A DNA stretch of 64,000 nt from an uncultured Oligoflexia bacterium. GTDB lineage: Bacteria > Bdellovibrionota > Bacteriovoracia > Bacteriovoracales > Bacteriovoracaceae. Shown here in pieces: positions 33,140 to 63,205 of this stretch (within the stretch, counting starts at the first letter, position 1; each line of letters starts with the position of its first letter). The stretch spans positions 124,001 through 188,000 of the forward strand of contig CAJXPQ010000001.1 in assembly GCA_913058265.1 (NCBI GenBank), read 5' to 3'. The translations under genes were made by a program, and so were the position numbers. The notes below the pieces were generated by a model. That model ran no database searches. It worked only from the letters and a program-made list of their open reading frames with translations, and was not told the DNA's origin.

Positions 33140-34204
33140 ATGAACAGGCCCTATTTGGTAAATTTTTCTTCCATCATAAACGATAGACAACTAAACATCA
33201 GAATCTCCCTGACGAAGTCCGTCACACAACAATACGGTAAGGCCAACCCATCTGAAAAACCAATTGATAGTATTTCTCTTTTCAGTAAAGAAATATTTAG
33301 AGTTCGTATCATTGGATTGAACTCAAATAATGTGCAGATATTATCCCGTGAGTATGACTCAGACAATTACGGAAATTTCCAATTGAAACTATCTGCATTC
33401 GTTGGAGATCAAAGAATAGAGAGACTCAGTATATTTGAGACACTAACGATCCCAGGGGTAGAGTTCCATCTGGGTGGTTTTCTTCCATTAGTGATAAAGA
33501 TGCCTAAAAAGATTTTAATCACAGATTTTGATAAGACACTTGTAGATACTAAGTATCATACACCAAGAGAGATGTATCATTCCCTAAATAGGCCTCTAAA
33601 CTTCTTTCCAACTGTTGAGTCAAGCGTTGATAAAATTAAGGATTATATAGCTAAGGACTTTCAACCATTTGTACTCTCAGCTTCTCCTCACTTTTATGAA
33701 AATGCCATCAGAGACTGGCTTTATCAACATGAGATTTTTGCAAGTAATATATTCCTTAAAGACTATAGAGATTTCATCTCAATTTTTGAGGGACGTCTCA
33801 GCACTAAAGACTTAAAGATACATGGCTTCTATAAGTTAAATAAACTGATTGATATTTTATTAATGACTGGAATTCCTGATGAGTTAGTTTTATTCGGAGA
33901 TGGTTTTGAATCGGATCCCTTTATTTATTTAACTCTACAAGAACTACTAGATAAAAAGACTGATCCTTGGAAGCTTTGGAAATCTCTTAAAAACCATAGT
34001 TTTTTCAATTTAACCAATAAACAAGACTCTATATTTATCACAAAATTTTATCAATTAAATGAAATGGCAAAGAATAAAGATACCATGTATTTGAAAATCT
34101 TTATTAGGGCCGTAGAAGATAATCTAACTGAGCTTCAAGAGTATAAGTTTGATAAAAAGACTCTGTCCGACTACAATGCTTCGGTCAACTACTATTTAGG
34201 CTAA
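33140..34204 (+). CDS. App1-like (DUF2183) phosphatase
   Basis: 354 residues. An N-terminal beta domain (about 1-115) resembles the one found before App1 catalytic domains. The HAD-type catalytic domain follows: ITDFDKTLVDT (nucleophile D129, D131), VLSASPHFYENAI, NIFLKDYRDF, then LVLFGDGFESDPFIYLTL with the acidic pair of the last HAD motif. Yeast App1 is a phosphatidate phosphatase. Bacterial members share the domain, but their lipid substrate is unproven. No signal peptide, so it acts in the cytoplasm or at the inner membrane face. Confidence 0.8.
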   Translation: MNRPYLVNFSSIINDRQLNIRISLTKSVTQQYGKANPSEKPIDSISLFSKEIFRVRIIGLNSNNVQILSREYDSDNYGNFQLKLSAFVGDQRIERLSIFETLTIPGVEFHLGGFLPLVIKMPKKILITDFDKTLVDTKYHTPREMYHSLNRPLNFFPTVESSVDKIKDYIAKDFQPFVLSASPHFYENAIRDWLYQHEIFASNIFLKDYRDFISIFEGRLSTKDLKIHGFYKLNKLIDILLMTGIPDELVLFGDGFESDPFIYLTLQELLDKKTDPWKLWKSLKNHSFFNLTNKQDSIFITKFYQLNEMAKNKDTMYLKIFIRAVEDNLTELQEYKFDKKTLSDYNASVNYYLG

Positions 34205-34444: not shown

Positions 34445-36043
34445 ATGGATAATCACCTTAACCACATTCACTTATTCGGAAATCCTAGTGAAAACTTTTA
34501 TGTTTTAGGTAAGAGGGACAAAACTTCCTTCCAAGAGGTTTACCATCAAATTTCAATGCTTTGTGCTCGTAATAATTATTTAGCAAAAATTATTAAAACA
34601 TCCACCGAGCTTAGTAGAAGATATAAGAATCAAAATCATAGCTCAAACTATATTGATGAACTCTCTTCATATGCTGAGGGCCTTGAAAAGCCTTTGGATG
34701 ATGTTCTTTTTGCGATGCTACTGCCAGAAGTTGTAGCATCATTTAACAAGTGGACCCCCAACCTTCTTAGTATCATCCCAGGATGCTCTTCACTATTTCA
34801 GAAAGACTCGCAGACCGGAGGTGTGATTCATACCAGGATTTTAGACTACGCTCTCAGTGGGCCTTTTGAAAAATATGAGCGAAGCGTACTTTATGATTTT
34901 AAAGATAAGTATAAAGTCTTCTCACTTTCTACTAGTGGACTCGCACTTCCAGCAATATCTGGCATGAATGAAAAAGGCTTAACCGTCGCGATTCACTACA
35001 AACATGGATCGACTTTTGATCTTGATGGACAATCTATTTTCTCTCTAGCATCCAATGTTCTATTTTATTGTGCCGATATCAGAGAAGCAATTAAATATCT
35101 TAAAAATCAGCAAAGTATCAGCTATTGGGGCCTATACTTAAGTGATGCCTCAGGTAATGTAGCGAGTGTCGACATTAGCGGGAATGAATTCTACCAACAG
35201 AAGTTTGATATCAATGATCATGATTATTTATACTTTAATAATAGACCTATTATTAAAAAGAATGAACATACTGATATTCAACCTTATGGGAATATGGATC
35301 AATGCCATATGAGAAGTGAGATTATAAGAATAAAACTTCAAGGTCAAAAAACCACAACAACTCTAGACTCATTAAAAAATTTATCAGGAGACTTTAAATA
35401 CAAAAGTAAAACGGCAAAAGACTGGAAACTTGCTCCCACAACTCCAAGTAGTATACAGGCATTTAGTTTTAACTATAAGGCGGATGAGATTATTGCTCTT
35501 CAAGGCGATGCTCCAAAATTCTTTAATAATGAATATCTAACATATACTTCTATTTTTTCAGAAACGACTCTTTCAAAGAAGAAATCTAAAGCAAAGCAGA
35601 ATAACTATATCAAGGGTTATAAATCTTTGGCCAAGACACAATCAGCTATTGACCTTGGGGACATAAGCCTTGCCTACCATGAAATCCAGATGGCGATAGA
35701 GTACTTCAAAGGCTATCCTGAATACTATATTTCGAAATTTTTCTTTTCCGTTTTAAAGTATATCTATGAATCAGATAAAAGAGATATGACTTACCTTTTT
35801 CATGAGTTCGAAAGTTATAACGGCAAGCTACCAGCATACTTACAAGACCAGAACTTTTTATTTATACTTAGATCTCAAATTATAATCGGACATAAAGTAA
35901 AGTCTGATATCGAAAAAATGAATAATCTAAAATTAAAACAGCTCTATGCTCATGAGTTAAAATTAAATGGACTTGGCATAAAAGGATTAAAGAATTTTAT
36001 TTTTCCAAGAATTGAAATACTAGATATTATCTACTCCTACTAA
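34445..36043 (+). CDS. C45-type Ntn hydrolase / acyltransferase-like protein
   Basis: 532 residues. The centre has the acyl-CoA:6-aminopenicillanate acyltransferase-like layout: a helical start, then IPGCSSLFQKD with candidate nucleophile Cys114, GGVIHTRILDY (R131, D134), GMNEKGLTVAIHY, and a later YLYFNNRPI region. In this family the Cys becomes the N-terminal nucleophile by self-cleavage, or the protein acts as an amide hydrolase. The C-terminal 160 residues are an extra helical, TPR-like part (SAIDLGDISLAYHEIQMAIEYF). No signal peptide, so it is cytoplasmic. Substrate unknown. Confidence 0.75.
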   Translation: MDNHLNHIHLFGNPSENFYVLGKRDKTSFQEVYHQISMLCARNNYLAKIIKTSTELSRRYKNQNHSSNYIDELSSYAEGLEKPLDDVLFAMLLPEVVASFNKWTPNLLSIIPGCSSLFQKDSQTGGVIHTRILDYALSGPFEKYERSVLYDFKDKYKVFSLSTSGLALPAISGMNEKGLTVAIHYKHGSTFDLDGQSIFSLASNVLFYCADIREAIKYLKNQQSISYWGLYLSDASGNVASVDISGNEFYQQKFDINDHDYLYFNNRPIIKKNEHTDIQPYGNMDQCHMRSEIIRIKLQGQKTTTTLDSLKNLSGDFKYKSKTAKDWKLAPTTPSSIQAFSFNYKADEIIALQGDAPKFFNNEYLTYTSIFSETTLSKKKSKAKQNNYIKGYKSLAKTQSAIDLGDISLAYHEIQMAIEYFKGYPEYYISKFFFSVLKYIYESDKRDMTYLFHEFESYNGKLPAYLQDQNFLFILRSQIIIGHKVKSDIEKMNNLKLKQLYAHELKLNGLGIKGLKNFIFPRIEILDIIYSY

Positions 36044-36909
36044 AAAAGATAAGAAAAAGAAATCCCAGCTTTAATCCCTGCCATCTGAACACTCTCCTCG
36101 ACACTTGCAATATCATTCTCAGGTAATTCAAAACCAGTTAGGTAAATATACTGATACGCTCCATCAAGATGTAAAGACCATTTATCGCCTAAGCTAAAAC
36201 GCATATCAGCACCAACCTGAGCACCTCCGCCGTAGCCAGAAATTGTAAATAAAGTCCTCGCCTCATATTCGAAATAAGGAACAAAGATTCCGCCAATAAC
36301 TAAACTTAGATCAAAAAAATCTGTCTGAATAAAACTTTTCATATAGTCGATTGAAATATCTGCATAAGTATAAACAACATCCACATCTCTAATCGCCTTA
36401 GAAGCAGTATAAAAATTAACAGAGGTTCGATACTCTTTAGGATCTTTTAAATTCCGGTAGTAACCTCTTAGACCTCCACCGATAAAAAGGGCATTATTAT
36501 CTTCAGTATCTTCCGCATTAGTGTCTACAAAATTTGATGAATGAGATGCACCCATAAAAGCGATTCGAGCAATGGAGTCGATTGCCGTCTCCTTCATCTT
36601 CATTCTTTCAGTAACACTCTGAAGTGCATTTAACTTATTATTTGACTCGATATCTTCAACTTTGACGTAAGCTACTTTCCCTTTCACAACTACTGGAAGC
36701 AGTCTCCCCTTATTTCGACGTACTTCACCGACACGAATTTTTGTCCCCTTGAAAATAAAACCAATTTCAGAACTCATTTGTAAGTCAGAGTAAATGACGG
36801 CCTTCTTTGAGACAATAGTCGCCCACCTGGCCGAGAAGGCAGATACGGAGAACAGAAGGCACATAATTGTGGCAAAATACCTAAAATTGAAATCTAAATA
36901 TTTTTTCAT
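36040..36909 (-). CDS. SH3b-domain protein with C-terminal outer-membrane-barrel-like region
   Basis: 289 residues from the ATG at 36909, preferred over a TTG at 36957; neither has a good ribosome site. The signal peptide ends SAFSA. A bacterial SH3-like segment follows (WATIVSKKAVIYSDLQMSSEIGFIFKGTKIRVGE...GKVAYVKVEDIE). Residues about 130-289 read as alternating beta strands (GGGLRGYYRN, VYTYADISIDY, LSLVIGGIFVPYFEY, GGAQVGADMRFSLG) ending in Phe (SYLF), as in outer-membrane barrels. It may tie peptidoglycan to the outer membrane (inference). Confidence 0.65.
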   Translation of the reverse strand: MKKYLDFNFRYFATIMCLLFSVSAFSARWATIVSKKAVIYSDLQMSSEIGFIFKGTKIRVGEVRRNKGRLLPVVVKGKVAYVKVEDIESNNKLNALQSVTERMKMKETAIDSIARIAFMGASHSSNFVDTNAEDTEDNNALFIGGGLRGYYRNLKDPKEYRTSVNFYTASKAIRDVDVVYTYADISIDYMKSFIQTDFFDLSLVIGGIFVPYFEYEARTLFTISGYGGGAQVGADMRFSLGDKWSLHLDGAYQYIYLTGFELPENDIASVEESVQMAGIKAGISFSYLF

Positions 36910-37087
36910 CACATTTATTATATCAAGTATCTGAAAAATAAATACCAAAAATATCAATTATTTAGGGACATTCCATAAGATTATGGCAAAAACTGACCTT
37001 TGTAAGCGGTTATAATTATAGAAAGTATTAAATATCCCGAACTAAACAGCCGATATTGAAACTAGGATGAATTTAAGGGAAAAAATT

Positions 37088-39259
37088 ATGAAAACTATCA
37101 CATTTAATTTTACTTTATTATTACTTCTATTATCTCTTGTAAGTTGTACTGAAGAGATCTCTGAAGAGATACAAAATAATGAGGTTAAAAAAGGTGAACT
37201 TACTGAAATTGAAAAATTTCAAGATAAGTCCATTCGACTTGTTCACAAAATGGATGCCGACCTATCTTATATTATGCATAAGAGTGGAAATGTAGAGCAA
37301 GCATGTGAACTTGATTCCCCTCTCCTTGGGTTTGATACTGATGATTATGATAAAACAGATAGTAGTTATAATGTAGATTGTATTCTTGATGTACAAGAGC
37401 TCGATCTCTATACTAAGGGTGCAAAATTTGAAGTTCAAGTTGATGAGTTTCTTTGCCAGTATGTAACGTACACACCTTTTAGATTCCTACAATATAGACC
37501 TGGAAATACAGATAAGAAGCAATATAATATTGCCTGTGACTCTATATGTGCCGCAGCTCAGCCTGACTTATGTGCTGATCTAGCTGCAAATCAGTTTAAA
37601 ACAATTGATACACTCAACAACGCCATTGGTACCATTTCAGATACAGATGACTTATTAGTAAAGGTAAATCCAATATTTAGTGATGCCATAGCTGTATCAC
37701 AACCTCTCTCTTGTGACTTTGATTACACCGATGTTGATAGCGACTTTGATGAGCCTAATTGTGATGAAGGTGGAGTGACAACATTTAATTATACTTTAAC
37801 CGGAAATGCAGAAGATGCAGTCCTTGGTGAAGCCTGTAATCTTGCAGGTGCTATTGATTCAGCTGGTATCTACAGAAACACTCAACTTACATGTGAGACT
37901 AGCTATACTTGGGATACAGGAAAGTGTATTACGGCAACCGCTGTTGAAGCACCAGGAGCGGCTACCGCATGTGCCACAGCTGGTTTTTTCTGGGTTGGAA
38001 CTGATGAGAATGTAGGAGACTGTGTTAGTGGTACAGAGGATACGACGATACAAGATGCTGTATCATGTGGAAGTGCCAGTGGATCATGGATTGGCTTTTG
38101 TTCTACTCCAATAATAGGAATTCCTAGTACATGTATTGCAGCTGGAGCAACTTGGTCAGGACCTTACTGTCAGTCTAATCCAGACGCTACAGATAGATTA
38201 GCTTGTATAGGCGGTGGCTCTCAGGATTCAACTTGTAACTCTCTAGTTGGAGATGTTCTTGATGTTACATCACATTCAAGTGAGTCTTTATGTACTGCAA
38301 CCGGTAGCTGGGAATTTCAAGCTTCATGTCTTGATTTAACCGGGGCTGACTCGATAGAGTTAGTCGAGACTGCTGAAACAGAGCTAGCTTGTGGCGGTAA
38401 AAATTCAGCATGTGTTGCAGGCCCTGGAGTAGATCTTTTAGATGACGAAAAATTTACAACAGAGAGATATGACAACACAGATACAAATGAATTTACAAAA
38501 GAATTTGAAGTTGAGGCACCTTTTGATAAGGATCTAAGATCTAATATGTATGTTGCCAACTTCTCTAGAATTTGTTCTGACACGTCGACAGACAAGTCAG
38601 CAGATGCATCATTTGATATAAGTACACTATTCAGTATAGATGGTTCAGAGGTTGAAGATCTATCTCCTTACACGGCCACCTCTGGGGTATTGCATGACTC
38701 CGATGGTGATGGAATTGATGATCAAAACTATAAAGCTTTTCACCCACTAAACGGGACTGGATACACAAGTAGACCGAGATTAACAACTTACCCGTACTAT
38801 TCAATCAAATGTCTTGATCAAGCAAGAGATGTGAAAGCACAAATTAGACTATTTATTCGTGAATGGGATAGAGGATTTGAAAATACAAATGCTTACCTAT
38901 CAAGGTTAAGTGATATTAATCAAAATACACTTACTGACCCTGCATTAATGGATGTGAGTGACACACTCGAGCAATCCGTAGGTAGTGCATGGAATGACTT
39001 CTATGACTGGGATGACTTGTTTAATGATGTTGATCAAAATAGTTTACTTGACGCTGATGGCGATGGTGATAATAGAGATAAAGTCTTCTTAAACAATCAA
39101 TGTAGTGCAGTTGAACTTGGTGAATGTTTTGACAGTACAATTCCTGCGACTGGTGTTGCACCAGTTCCAACAGGAGATCTGGATCAAGCGACTTGTGAAG
39201 CTACAGTTGGTCAATACTGGATTTCAAGTGATCTCGTCTTTCCAGGAAATAAATTATAA
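37088..39259 (+). CDS. Large Cys-rich lipoprotein with C-x(n)-G-x-W-x(n)-C repeats
   Basis: 723 residues from the ATG at 37088, chosen because AAGGGA lies 8 nt upstream; the ATG at 37067 lacks this. Lipobox LVSC. About 28 Cys are spread through an acidic protein. Several units have the form Cys, a few residues, Gly-x-Trp, a few residues, Cys (see repeat entry). Asp-rich calcium-type loops occur (DSDGDGIDDQ, DADGDGDNRD, DVDSDFDEPN). It is probably a surface-exposed, disulfide- and Ca-stabilised lipoprotein. I recognise no named family. Confidence 0.7.
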   Translation: MKTITFNFTLLLLLLSLVSCTEEISEEIQNNEVKKGELTEIEKFQDKSIRLVHKMDADLSYIMHKSGNVEQACELDSPLLGFDTDDYDKTDSSYNVDCILDVQELDLYTKGAKFEVQVDEFLCQYVTYTPFRFLQYRPGNTDKKQYNIACDSICAAAQPDLCADLAANQFKTIDTLNNAIGTISDTDDLLVKVNPIFSDAIAVSQPLSCDFDYTDVDSDFDEPNCDEGGVTTFNYTLTGNAEDAVLGEACNLAGAIDSAGIYRNTQLTCETSYTWDTGKCITATAVEAPGAATACATAGFFWVGTDENVGDCVSGTEDTTIQDAVSCGSASGSWIGFCSTPIIGIPSTCIAAGATWSGPYCQSNPDATDRLACIGGGSQDSTCNSLVGDVLDVTSHSSESLCTATGSWEFQASCLDLTGADSIELVETAETELACGGKNSACVAGPGVDLLDDEKFTTERYDNTDTNEFTKEFEVEAPFDKDLRSNMYVANFSRICSDTSTDKSADASFDISTLFSIDGSEVEDLSPYTATSGVLHDSDGDGIDDQNYKAFHPLNGTGYTSRPRLTTYPYYSIKCLDQARDVKAQIRLFIREWDRGFENTNAYLSRLSDINQNTLTDPALMDVSDTLEQSVGSAWNDFYDWDDLFNDVDQNSLLDADGDGDNRDKVFLNNQCSAVELGECFDSTIPATGVAPVPTGDLDQATCEATVGQYWISSDLVFPGNKL
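37892..38329 (+). repeat. Tandem Cys/Trp repeat units in lipoprotein
   Basis: Five short units in the Cys-rich lipoprotein share Cys, 3-6 residues, (Gly/Ser)-x-Trp, 4-10 residues, Cys: CETSYTWDTGKC, CATAGFFWVG...DC, CGSASGSWIGFC, CIAAGATWSGPYC, CTATGSWEFQASC. A sixth partial copy (CEATVGQYWIS) is at the C-terminus near 39194. The DNA copies are diverged, so the duplication is old. Confidence 0.7.
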
Positions 39260-61744: not shown

Positions 61745-63205
61745 TTGAGCAATGATAACGATGAGGACATTACTCGCATTGAAGATCTTCCCAATTTAAA
61801 TGGTATTGAGGATGACGAAGACTTTACTAGCTTAGACGATCTTGCTGATTCAATGAATCTGAATACAGATGAAGAGATCCCGGGTCTACCAAAGGATCTT
61901 GATGAACTTCAAGATGAAACCCCTCCGCTATTTGCTGCAAATGAGGACCCCCCACCAGAGTTTACCTCGCCTGAAAATGACTTTGAAACTCCAGACTTTG
62001 AAACTCCGGACTTCGAAATGCCAGACTTCTCAGAGGATGAAGGTGTATTCGATACTAATCTTAAGGATCAAGATGACGACCTTAATAGTAGGTTAACTTC
62101 ATTTGATACTGAAACTGAAATTAAAAATAATGACTTCAATAGCGAGTTCAATGATGAGTTTGAGGAATCAACAATAGATGAATCATATTTCCCGGAAGAA
62201 GACTCTGAGGAAACATTGATTTCAGCTAGCGCTGAAGTTCTATTTGAAGAAGAAGAGAAAGAAGAAGAGAAAGAGTTAAAACAATCAGTACCTGAAAGAA
62301 CTCCAATAGAAAGAGAATCCGAAGAAAAGCCTTGGAGTGGTACTCAAAACCTTGATGATGTCACTGAGTTCGGAGAAAAAAGTACATACTCTACTCTTGC
62401 ATCAGAGGGGAATCCTCCTTTTAGTGTCATCCTTAAAAACCCAAGATATAAAGAAGATGTTGAAGACATTATAACGATTTTAAAGGAAGTTGAAATCGTT
62501 TCAGAAAGTGACATTGAGCAAGTAACAAAATCACTAACTGATGGGCAGTATCTTGTTTCTCGAATTAGTGAATATTGTGCGATCATCCTTTGTCACAAAC
62601 TCAGACGTTTTGATGTTGAGATATTAATGGGCCTGACAGAGGAAATTAATCCACCTAAGAGCTATGACTCTGAAGATCGTGGACTACTCACCAAAGCAAG
62701 TATACTCAATAATAAGAAGCATCACTTTAATTTCAAAGCAGTTGAAAAAGAAAATATACTTGCAACGACTCTTCCTCAAATTGAAGGTCATATTATCAAA
62801 AAACATTTTGGTATTATTACCAGGTCTACTCAAATAAGTGCCAATGAGTTGAAACCTTCAGGAGCTGAGGATGAACTCATTGAGAAAATGCATGATGAGG
62901 ATAAGAAACTGATACAAAACTATCGCCTAAAAAGAGAAAATTACCTGGCATCTAACTCCCAACACCCGGGGGACAACTTTGTACATTTGCTAGACGAATC
63001 AACAAAAGGGTCACATTTAGAAGTCGACAATATCTACAAAAACCTTCTAGACAAGCTTAAAGACAATGCTATGAGCAATCGAGCTAATGGACTTGTCGGC
63101 GTTAATTTCATGGTTACACCTCTTCCTCTCCAAGACTTTCAAAGTCATGATACAATATATCAAATACAATGCTCGGGGAATATGGTTTGGATAGAGAAAA
63201 GATAG
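61745..63205 (+). CDS. Acidic protein with C-terminal YbjQ-like domain
   Basis: 486 residues, TTG start with GGAG 5 nt upstream at the secA stop. Residues 1-200 are very acidic and repetitive. A middle helical-beta domain follows (FSVILKNPRYKEDVEDIITILKEV...DGQYLVSRISEYCAIILCHKLRRFDVEIL). The C-terminus begins ATTLPQIEGHIIKKHFGIITRSTQIS and ends with A-x-x-xGANGLVGVNF-type residues (SNRANGLVGVNFMV), as in YbjQ/DUF74 domains. Activity unknown; cytoplasmic. The acidic half could bind a basic partner (inference). Confidence 0.65.
   Translation: MSNDNDEDITRIEDLPNLNGIEDDEDFTSLDDLADSMNLNTDEEIPGLPKDLDELQDETPPLFAANEDPPPEFTSPENDFETPDFETPDFEMPDFSEDEGVFDTNLKDQDDDLNSRLTSFDTETEIKNNDFNSEFNDEFEESTIDESYFPEEDSEETLISASAEVLFEEEEKEEEKELKQSVPERTPIERESEEKPWSGTQNLDDVTEFGEKSTYSTLASEGNPPFSVILKNPRYKEDVEDIITILKEVEIVSESDIEQVTKSLTDGQYLVSRISEYCAIILCHKLRRFDVEILMGLTEEINPPKSYDSEDRGLLTKASILNNKKHHFNFKAVEKENILATTLPQIEGHIIKKHFGIITRSTQISANELKPSGAEDELIEKMHDEDKKLIQNYRLKRENYLASNSQHPGDNFVHLLDESTKGSHLEVDNIYKNLLDKLKDNAMSNRANGLVGVNFMVTPLPLQDFQSHDTIYQIQCSGNMVWIEKR
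61979..62023 (+). repeat. Three tandem 15-bp units (DFETP-type)
   Basis: Three consecutive 5-residue units, Asp-Phe-Glu-(Thr/Met)-Pro, inside the acidic gene, with a fourth partial Asp-Phe. Codon-level similarity is high, so this is a recent slippage-type expansion. Confidence 0.75.

Follow-up and report, generated by a model that had tools for sequence, protein, structure and literature searches.

The lipoprotein gene and its neighbourhood

The window, a 64,000-nucleotide stretch of DNA from an uncultured Oligoflexia bacterium, contains on its forward strand an open reading frame (37067–39259), in which a gene coding for a protein of 723 residues (P0001) occupies positions 37088–39259. ATG 37088 looks a better start than ATG 37067, because an AAGGG motif is found 8 nt upstream of it. 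The signal peptide and the lipobox (LVS followed by C20; 37088–37147, forward strand) were read from the sequence, and the starts of the orthologues are similar; a lipoprotein of 723 residues beginning at 37088, as described in the initial annotation, is present, and it probably is an outer-membrane lipoprotein. Its composition includes 29 Cys and 9 Trp.

The protein consists of a core in two halves, both coded on the forward strand, with a loop between them. The first half (residues 48-238; 37229–37801) contains the conserved cysteines C73, C98, C123, C150, C209 and C225, and the second (residues 424-650; 38357–39037) includes C435, C442, C575 and the strand AQIRLFIREWD. The expandable loop (residues 245-423; 37820–38356, forward strand) lies between the consecutive strands 229-238 and 424-434, and holds 13 Cys and 5 Trp. 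A calcium-type loop, DSDGDGIDD (residues 537-545; 38696–38722, forward strand), and two weaker Asp loops at residues 609 and 647 do exist, but all belong to the core's second half and none to the Cys/Trp units, where they had originally been placed; the strict Asp-loop pattern is present in four of the ten syntenic orthologues described below.

The divergent neighbour of the lipoprotein gene (36040–36957, reverse strand) gives a weak match to an outer-membrane beta-barrel family (OMP_myx_plus, E 0.019, 15 bits against a cut-off of 60). Such a barrel-like gene adjoins the lipoprotein gene in 10 other genomes, and the two products may work together. The same neighbourhood comprises a conserved gene (34445–36043, forward strand) for a C45/AAT-type autoproteolytic acyltransferase, which is above the Pfam cut-off for AAT and reaches 82 bits against 85 for the NCBIfam C45_proenzyme model; the product of a further gene (33140–34204, forward strand) scores exactly the Pfam cut-off (27.1 bits) for an APP1-type phosphatidate phosphatase domain. 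Elsewhere in the window, a 15-base tandem repeat of 3.3 copies (61979–62028) lies inside the open reading frame 61745–63205.

The core family

Matches to the lipoprotein were obtained in 36 of the 79 genomes searched, its own included. At ten loci that were fetched (L031-L039, without a gap, and L041) the gene lies between the barrel-like gene and a POT transporter, and these ten genes are considered syntenic orthologues because they share the same two neighbours; the orientation is that of the window in nine of them, while the L035 gene is inverted and about 2.3 kb away from the transporter. Alignment of the syntenic orthologues revealed two conserved halves, separated by a loop of widely differing length.

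A wider scan for the core confirmed 56 of 77 candidate stretches. The labels of 48 of these are Halobacteriovoraceae, Halobacteriovorax, Bacteriovoracaceae, Bacteriovorax, Bdellovibrio, Bdellovibrionales, Bdellovibrionaceae, Bdellovibrionota or Oligoflexia, and the remaining eight are metagenome bins carrying other labels; the lipoprotein family occurs in Bacteriovoracaceae and in other Bdellovibrionota. A first scan of genome contigs with the protein alone had returned 24 stretches, none of them confirmed, and the search for viral relatives of the core returned 27 pattern-matching stretches, again with none confirmed. The core profile matches 57 open reading frames, 53 of which were kept; 44 of these and the window protein form the alignment A3 (45 sequences), the other nine being partial, divergent or second copies.

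In A3, which was built around the window protein, the ten core cysteines are retained in 37 to 45 of the 45 sequences. The cysteines of the units align with a Cys in only 1 to 6 of them, with the exception of C402 (36 of 45), a column where the loops of other members also contain a Cys. The initial annotation, which saw the units as a rigid stalk or adhesin, had stated that cysteines not conserved among orthologues would speak against it, and this is the situation observed.

Two architectures are common in the family: short lipoproteins of about 370-730 residues, and long ones of about 1,160-1,850 residues, whose core is placed towards the C-terminus; a form of 884 residues is encoded at one locus (L045/L117). 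He_PIG domains (PF05345) pass the cut-off in two of the three long proteins scanned, the third reaching 19.2 bits against 24. In a tree of 66 core sequences, the window protein groups with L032 and L033 (SH-aLRT 89), and L034, which has no units, is the next nearest by path.

Comparison with known families gave no convincing relative. Pfam returned no family for the window protein at E up to 1, and seven families, with one member each and a best E of 0.032, for the other members of the alignment A1; the best NCBIfam values, 0.022 for the window protein and 0.0017 (omptin) for one of 16 members, were not taken as real, and the best PHROGs E for the window protein was 0.079. Sequence searches of the PDB found nothing for the core at E up to 10, and for the units only matches at E 1.1, 3.7 and 3.9.

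Number, phase and spacing of the Cys/Trp units

The initial annotation described five to six units of the form C-x(3-6)-[GS]-x-W-x(4-10)-C. Taken literally, this pattern matches the lipoprotein once, at C402, and is also found in 1004 of 20,000 shuffled sequences. A looser pattern, C-x(3-7)-W-x(2-14)-C, which was picked after the sequence had been seen, gives five matches (C269, C295, C327, C349 and C402) against 0.73 expected by shuffling; five matches were reached in 32 of 20,000 shuffles of the whole protein, and in 36 of 20,000 when the insert alone was shuffled. The array is real, with a regularity lower than first described.

The phase of the unit also has to be changed. The cysteine following the Trp had been assigned to the same unit as the one preceding it (C2..W..C1'), but single copies found elsewhere show the order C1..C2..W: they take the form C1-x(10,12,14)-C2-x4-G-x-W, and in most cases no Cys follows shortly after the Trp. 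In L032, L033 and L126 the last units terminate at the Trp, with no further Cys, and many units of the long homologues L106, L108, L121 and L126 approximate to C-[ST]-[DN]-x-x-[YF]-x-[TS]-[QKE]-x-x-C-E-x5-W, where the first Cys is 11 residues before the second.

Read in this phase, the loop contains, all on the forward strand, module 1 (C250-C269-W275, C1-C2 spacing 19; 37835–37912), module 2 (C280-C295-W302, spacing 15; 37925–37993), module 3 (C312-C327-W334, spacing 15; 38021–38089), module 4 (C338-C349-W356, spacing 11; 38099–38155), the degenerate module 5, which can be recognised in the sequence by its two cysteines and lacks the Trp (C361-C373, spacing 12; 38168–38224), and module 6 (C383-C402-W408, spacing 19; 38234–38311). 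A tail module (C680-C703-W711, spacing 23; 39125–39220, forward strand) follows the core; tail modules are present also in L032 and L033. The window protein thus has five complete units and one without Trp in the loop, and a further unit in the tail.

The spacings of the six Trp-bearing units (19, 15, 15, 11, 19 and 23) all leave a remainder of 3 on division by 4. The orthologues fit this rule less well, since their spacings are mostly 11, but also 13 twice (L032) and 16 once (L035); the regularity, noticed after the fact, may serve as a lead. Recent duplication of the units at the DNA level was considered and rejected, as the unit loop contains no tandem array; the direct repeats touching it amount to a single 12-nt repeat in two copies.

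Predicted structure

In the AlphaFold model of the full protein, the mean pLDDT of blocks in the core is 84-98 (residues 41-170), 85-90 (221-240), 73-96 (431-490) and 87-97 (571-600), while in the loop the confidence is below 50 for residues 245-335, 340-343 and 359-420. According to the model, both halves of the protein contribute beta strands to one core, probably a beta-sandwich, and strands 229-238 and 424-434 would probably pair as a hairpin with the loop at its tip. A separate model of module 4, together with the C2-W-C1' part of module 3 (pLDDT 66.5, pTM 0.40), predicts a helix-strand-helix-strand arrangement, in which each C2 is surrounded by a short helix and a strand runs from the Trp to the next C1.

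The structure search of the full model against solved chains gave no Z of 5 or more; a query of 723 residues can miss domain matches, so that a new fold is not thereby shown. The best Z was 4.8 (1t4w, rmsd 5.4, 143 residues aligned; RhoGDI 1ft0, rmsd 3.9, 120 aligned), and the best Foldseek E for the lipoprotein model was 1.5.

Gain and loss of units at loops

Units are present in three of the ten syntenic orthologues, with two to four in each: L032 has one loop unit and three tail units, L033 one and two, and L035 two. They occupy the same loop as in the window protein and, in L032 and L033, the tail. By reading, the other seven orthologues have none; stray C-x(3-6)-W stretches lacking a fitting C1 occur in L031, L036, L037 and L038, and in L036 they derive from core cysteines. 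Among deep relatives of the long type, L058, L060 and L062 carry units between the same two core landmarks as the window protein, and in L061 the units come after the first landmark, the second one not being detected by the regular expression. The pattern census gave a match in 25 of the 73 distinct open reading frames of the family, some of them by chance.

Insertions and deletions were compared in an alignment of seven long homologues (L046, L106, L108, L120, L121, L126 and L130), leaving out the first module site and the tails, which are too badly aligned. At one site, only L121 carries a module, of about 22 residues, and L108, L106, L126, L130 and L120 run on directly (L046 is poorly aligned there); a two-module insert is shared by L108 and L106 and absent from the other five; and at the third site a single module is shared by L106, L108, L121 and L126 and missing from L130, L120 and L046. 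These differences indicate that modules come and go as units within loops.

Occurrence of the module in Bacteria

In the genome of the bacterium itself, the unit profile finds five matches in the lipoprotein gene and one of 14 bits, at chance level, in a frame of 21 residues; the hypothesis of a genome-wide repeat was rejected on these grounds. The loose codon pattern gave 34 matches in this genome against 13 for the control, and two of the 34 were read. One is in a 44-residue frame; the other belongs to a frame of at least 866 residues with Ig-like repeats (L350), which runs off the end of contig 11. In these Ig-like repeats the C-x3-GTW stretch seems to be part of the Ig domain, and mimics the module.

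Among 368 genomes of the phylum Bdellovibrionota, two unit profiles found 16 at E up to 0.01, where chance would give about four, and 20 at E up to 0.003, where it would give about one; these counts are partly circular, as both profiles were built partly from the searched genomes and the counts include the own genome and the training genomes. The strict codon pattern for C[EQ]xxGGTW produced only a mild excess, with 15 sites in 15 of the 368 genomes against five control sites, and five of the 15 fall in frames shorter than 70 residues.

Outside the core family, single Cys/Trp modules were found in L157, L161 (the same as L335), L338, L339, L340 and L344, whose starts are of the G[FM]xLxE type, which we take to be a prepilin-like motif. 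Other lipoproteins outside the core family are also carriers, for example L159, which has two clear units and a looser third one. L158 and L160, each with one weak unit, and L156, a frame with stops, were not counted as carriers.

Occurrence of the module in phages

A search of viral contigs with the C[EQ]xAGGTW codon pattern returned at least 120 stretches, against 15 for the reversed peptide. The pattern leaves C1 free; a Cys is found 8-16 residues before C2 in 76 of 88 distinct contexts. A Cys 3-16 residues after the Trp occurs in 19 of the 88; both cysteines are present in 13 and neither in six. With the unit masked, the 117 viral carriers of the first scan fall into 31 clusters at a blastp threshold of 1e-4, and in 22 of these clusters, which blastp does not link, C1 lies 8-21 residues upstream. 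When all scans are pooled, 225 frames give 39 clusters, 32 of them with C1. Chance probably accounts for some of the carriers that have no C1, in frames that are short or GC-rich.

The carriers include virion proteins. A PHROGs comparison of 41 of the 47 prepared carriers names, among the best 25 of 65 families, the central tail fibre J, tail, minor tail, virion structural and baseplate wedge proteins (1-3 members each); single other classes are named too (an amidase family in three carriers, a head-tail adaptor and an acyltransferase). Ten carriers were compared with Pfam: for five there is no family, models of the phage tail, tail-tip, GpJ or Gp8 type are matched by L264, L213, L244 and L237, and L310 has a sub-threshold match to gp10-D3. 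In tblastn the consensus query matches three named phage records and no plasmid, among them Shewanella phage KASIA, in a tail protein, and Vibrio phage GR7B, where the matching gene follows one noted as gp25-like; the insert of the window protein itself matches no phage or plasmid at E up to 10. Two modules each were seen in the phage proteins L208, L233, L272, L274, L283, L300 and L307, the second being mostly near the C-terminus.

Scans with C1 fixed gave at least 120 stretches for a C1-C2 spacing of 11, six for 12, 22 for 13, three for 14 and 72 for 15. When every carrier cluster of the first set is counted a single time for each of its spacings, 23 spacings are odd and six even. The preference for 11 and 15 would fit a hairpin extended by two residues in each strand, or a loop lengthened by one turn. 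At 95 distinct phage sites the fourfold third positions come close to randomness (1.8-1.9 bits, the first two positions being fixed by the pattern), so that it is the protein sequence of the module that is conserved, rather than a DNA or RNA element.

The six Trp-bearing units of the window protein have C1, C2 and W in the same order as the phage modules, but three of their spacings exceed the phage norm (mostly 11, 13 and 15), and the residues preceding the Trp are SYT, GFF, SGS, GAT, TGS and GQY, compared with the GG-T-W core of the phages. A profile-profile comparison of 14 units from the window protein, L032, L033 and L035 with 20 phage units gave a probability of 97.4% (E 1.5e-11) over 18 columns; the module and its profiles are so short that common descent and convergence with the phage units are inseparable.

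We found no name for this Cys-Trp micro-module. Judged by titles and the first lines of abstracts, the AGGTW matches in the literature look like nucleotide codes or unrelated; the one match for cysteine-rich repeats in Bacteriovorax lipoproteins concerns, by the same material, lipocones. A made-up consensus of three copies had its best E at 0.011 in Pfam, with weak matches including gp10-D3 (0.38) and Gp8 (2.7), and at 0.0031 in PHROGs. Its NCBIfam match to HGG_STG (E 9.7e-8, 31.6 bits against 29) was taken as an effect of the query composition, and its best PDB match, the defensin eurocin (E 0.035), is too weak to use.

Possible role of the modules

Computation establishes the protein family, the position of the units in a loop, their gain and loss, their phase and their wide distribution. 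On balance, we lean towards the view that the modules, clamped by a disulfide and anchored by a Trp, decorate or lengthen exposed loops of surface proteins. The expandable loop between two consecutive core strands would have taken up a tandem row of modules of about 20-30 residues, of the form C1-x(10 or more)-C2-x(5-7)-W. C1 and C2 of each module may be joined by a disulfide, and the strand bearing the packed Trp may be preceded by a short helix around C2. Modules would be gained and lost as units at loops, with the fold of the host protein undisturbed; such compact, oxidation-locked modules could lengthen or cap exposed loops of extracellular assemblies, varying the contact surface towards prey, substrate or neighbouring proteins in the case of the window protein, and that of the tail-tip and baseplate in phages. 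Several points speak against this view: the loop is modelled with low confidence, one unit of the window protein has lost its Trp, nine of the 31 first-scan clusters show no C1, so that chance matches are likely among the carriers, and in the bacterium's own genome the unit profile finds no second protein above chance level. In addition, the assembly of phage proteins takes place in the reducing cytoplasm, and disulfides in them could form only at a late stage.

The initial interpretation is partly supported, in that small Cys-paired modules in an exported lipoprotein agree with the data; its full form, a chain of disulfide micro-knots making a rigid stalk or adhesin as the main function of the lipoprotein, appears unlikely. 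It can point to the tandem units, with 13 Cys in about 180 residues, to the exported nature of the lipoprotein, and to the long relatives with He_PIG Ig domains, as stalks often have. The array, however, is inserted into a single loop of the conserved core, missing from seven of the ten syntenic orthologues and differing in number in the other three, which does not agree with a conserved stalk; moreover, a cystine knot is formed by three interlocked disulfides, and is impossible here because each unit has two Cys. It is similarly improbable that a tolerant, disordered loop has gathered by drift a Cys-rich sequence which recurs by convergence and has no selected function: the low model confidence in the loop, the free variation in unit number and the unit without its Trp would be expected from drift, but the motif, its phase and the spacing it prefers are seen again and again in 22 to 32 carrier clusters between which blastp finds no link, and synonymous positions are free at the module sites. 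The least probable explanation is that in the lipoprotein and in the phage proteins the Cys pairs bind a metal or a cofactor and form no disulfides. In the cytoplasm, where phage tail and baseplate proteins assemble, a metal site would be the easier one to form; on the other hand, with two Cys per unit the listed phage units have no further conserved Cys or His, although some His are found between the cysteines, and exported lipoproteins face an oxidising space.

Beyond loop decoration by disulfide-clamped modules, a more far-reaching proposal can be advanced tentatively, with rather less than even confidence. A single micro-domain of about 20 residues, C1-x(10+4n)-C2-[E]-x-[A]-G-G-T-W, might be common to phage virion proteins, type IV prepilin-like proteins and surface lipoproteins, being inserted and deleted whole in exposed loops; its spacing would step by four (11 and 15, and 19 and 23 in the window protein), as an extensible hairpin keeps the disulfide in register. 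If the module is indeed one thing, many unannotated inserts in phage tail-tip and baseplate proteins, prepilin-like proteins and lipoproteins would share one explanation, and a single testable structure would stand for all carriers. That phage tail proteins and the lipoproteins of relatives of predators both contain it suggests a shared role at contact surfaces, and a self-folding insert of 20 residues that loops accept would, if confirmed, be a useful tool.

Comparison with known systems

The C-x3-G-x-W-x(n)-C stretch of the window units resembles the end of the Sushi/CCP domain, which has about 60 residues and four Cys; no Sushi match was obtained in the Pfam scans of the window protein or its relatives, and an identity with this domain was discarded. 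The Myxococcus cysteine-rich repeat of NCBIfam presumably represents short Cys-rich repeats of exported bacterial proteins with a different motif, and is absent from the NCBIfam matches of the window protein and of the family members.

The long He_PIG lipoproteins of Bdellovibrionota share with the window protein the core, located at their C-terminal end, and some of them carry the same modules in the same loop, in the tail or in the Ig region; unlike the window protein, they have a long N-terminal region. In phages, the tail-tip protein J (PHROG 31; Pfam FNIII-A_GpJ and Phage-tail_3), the gp8-like baseplate wedge (PF09215) and other virion proteins contain C1..C2..GG-x-W modules like the window units, inserted with the same phase and with overlapping spacings; the Gp8 match of L237 and the gp10-D3 match of L310 span the module, these models partly including it. 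The phage modules, which were found with the stricter C[EQ]xAGGTW pattern, differ in being mostly present in one copy and in host proteins that are unrelated to the lipoprotein.
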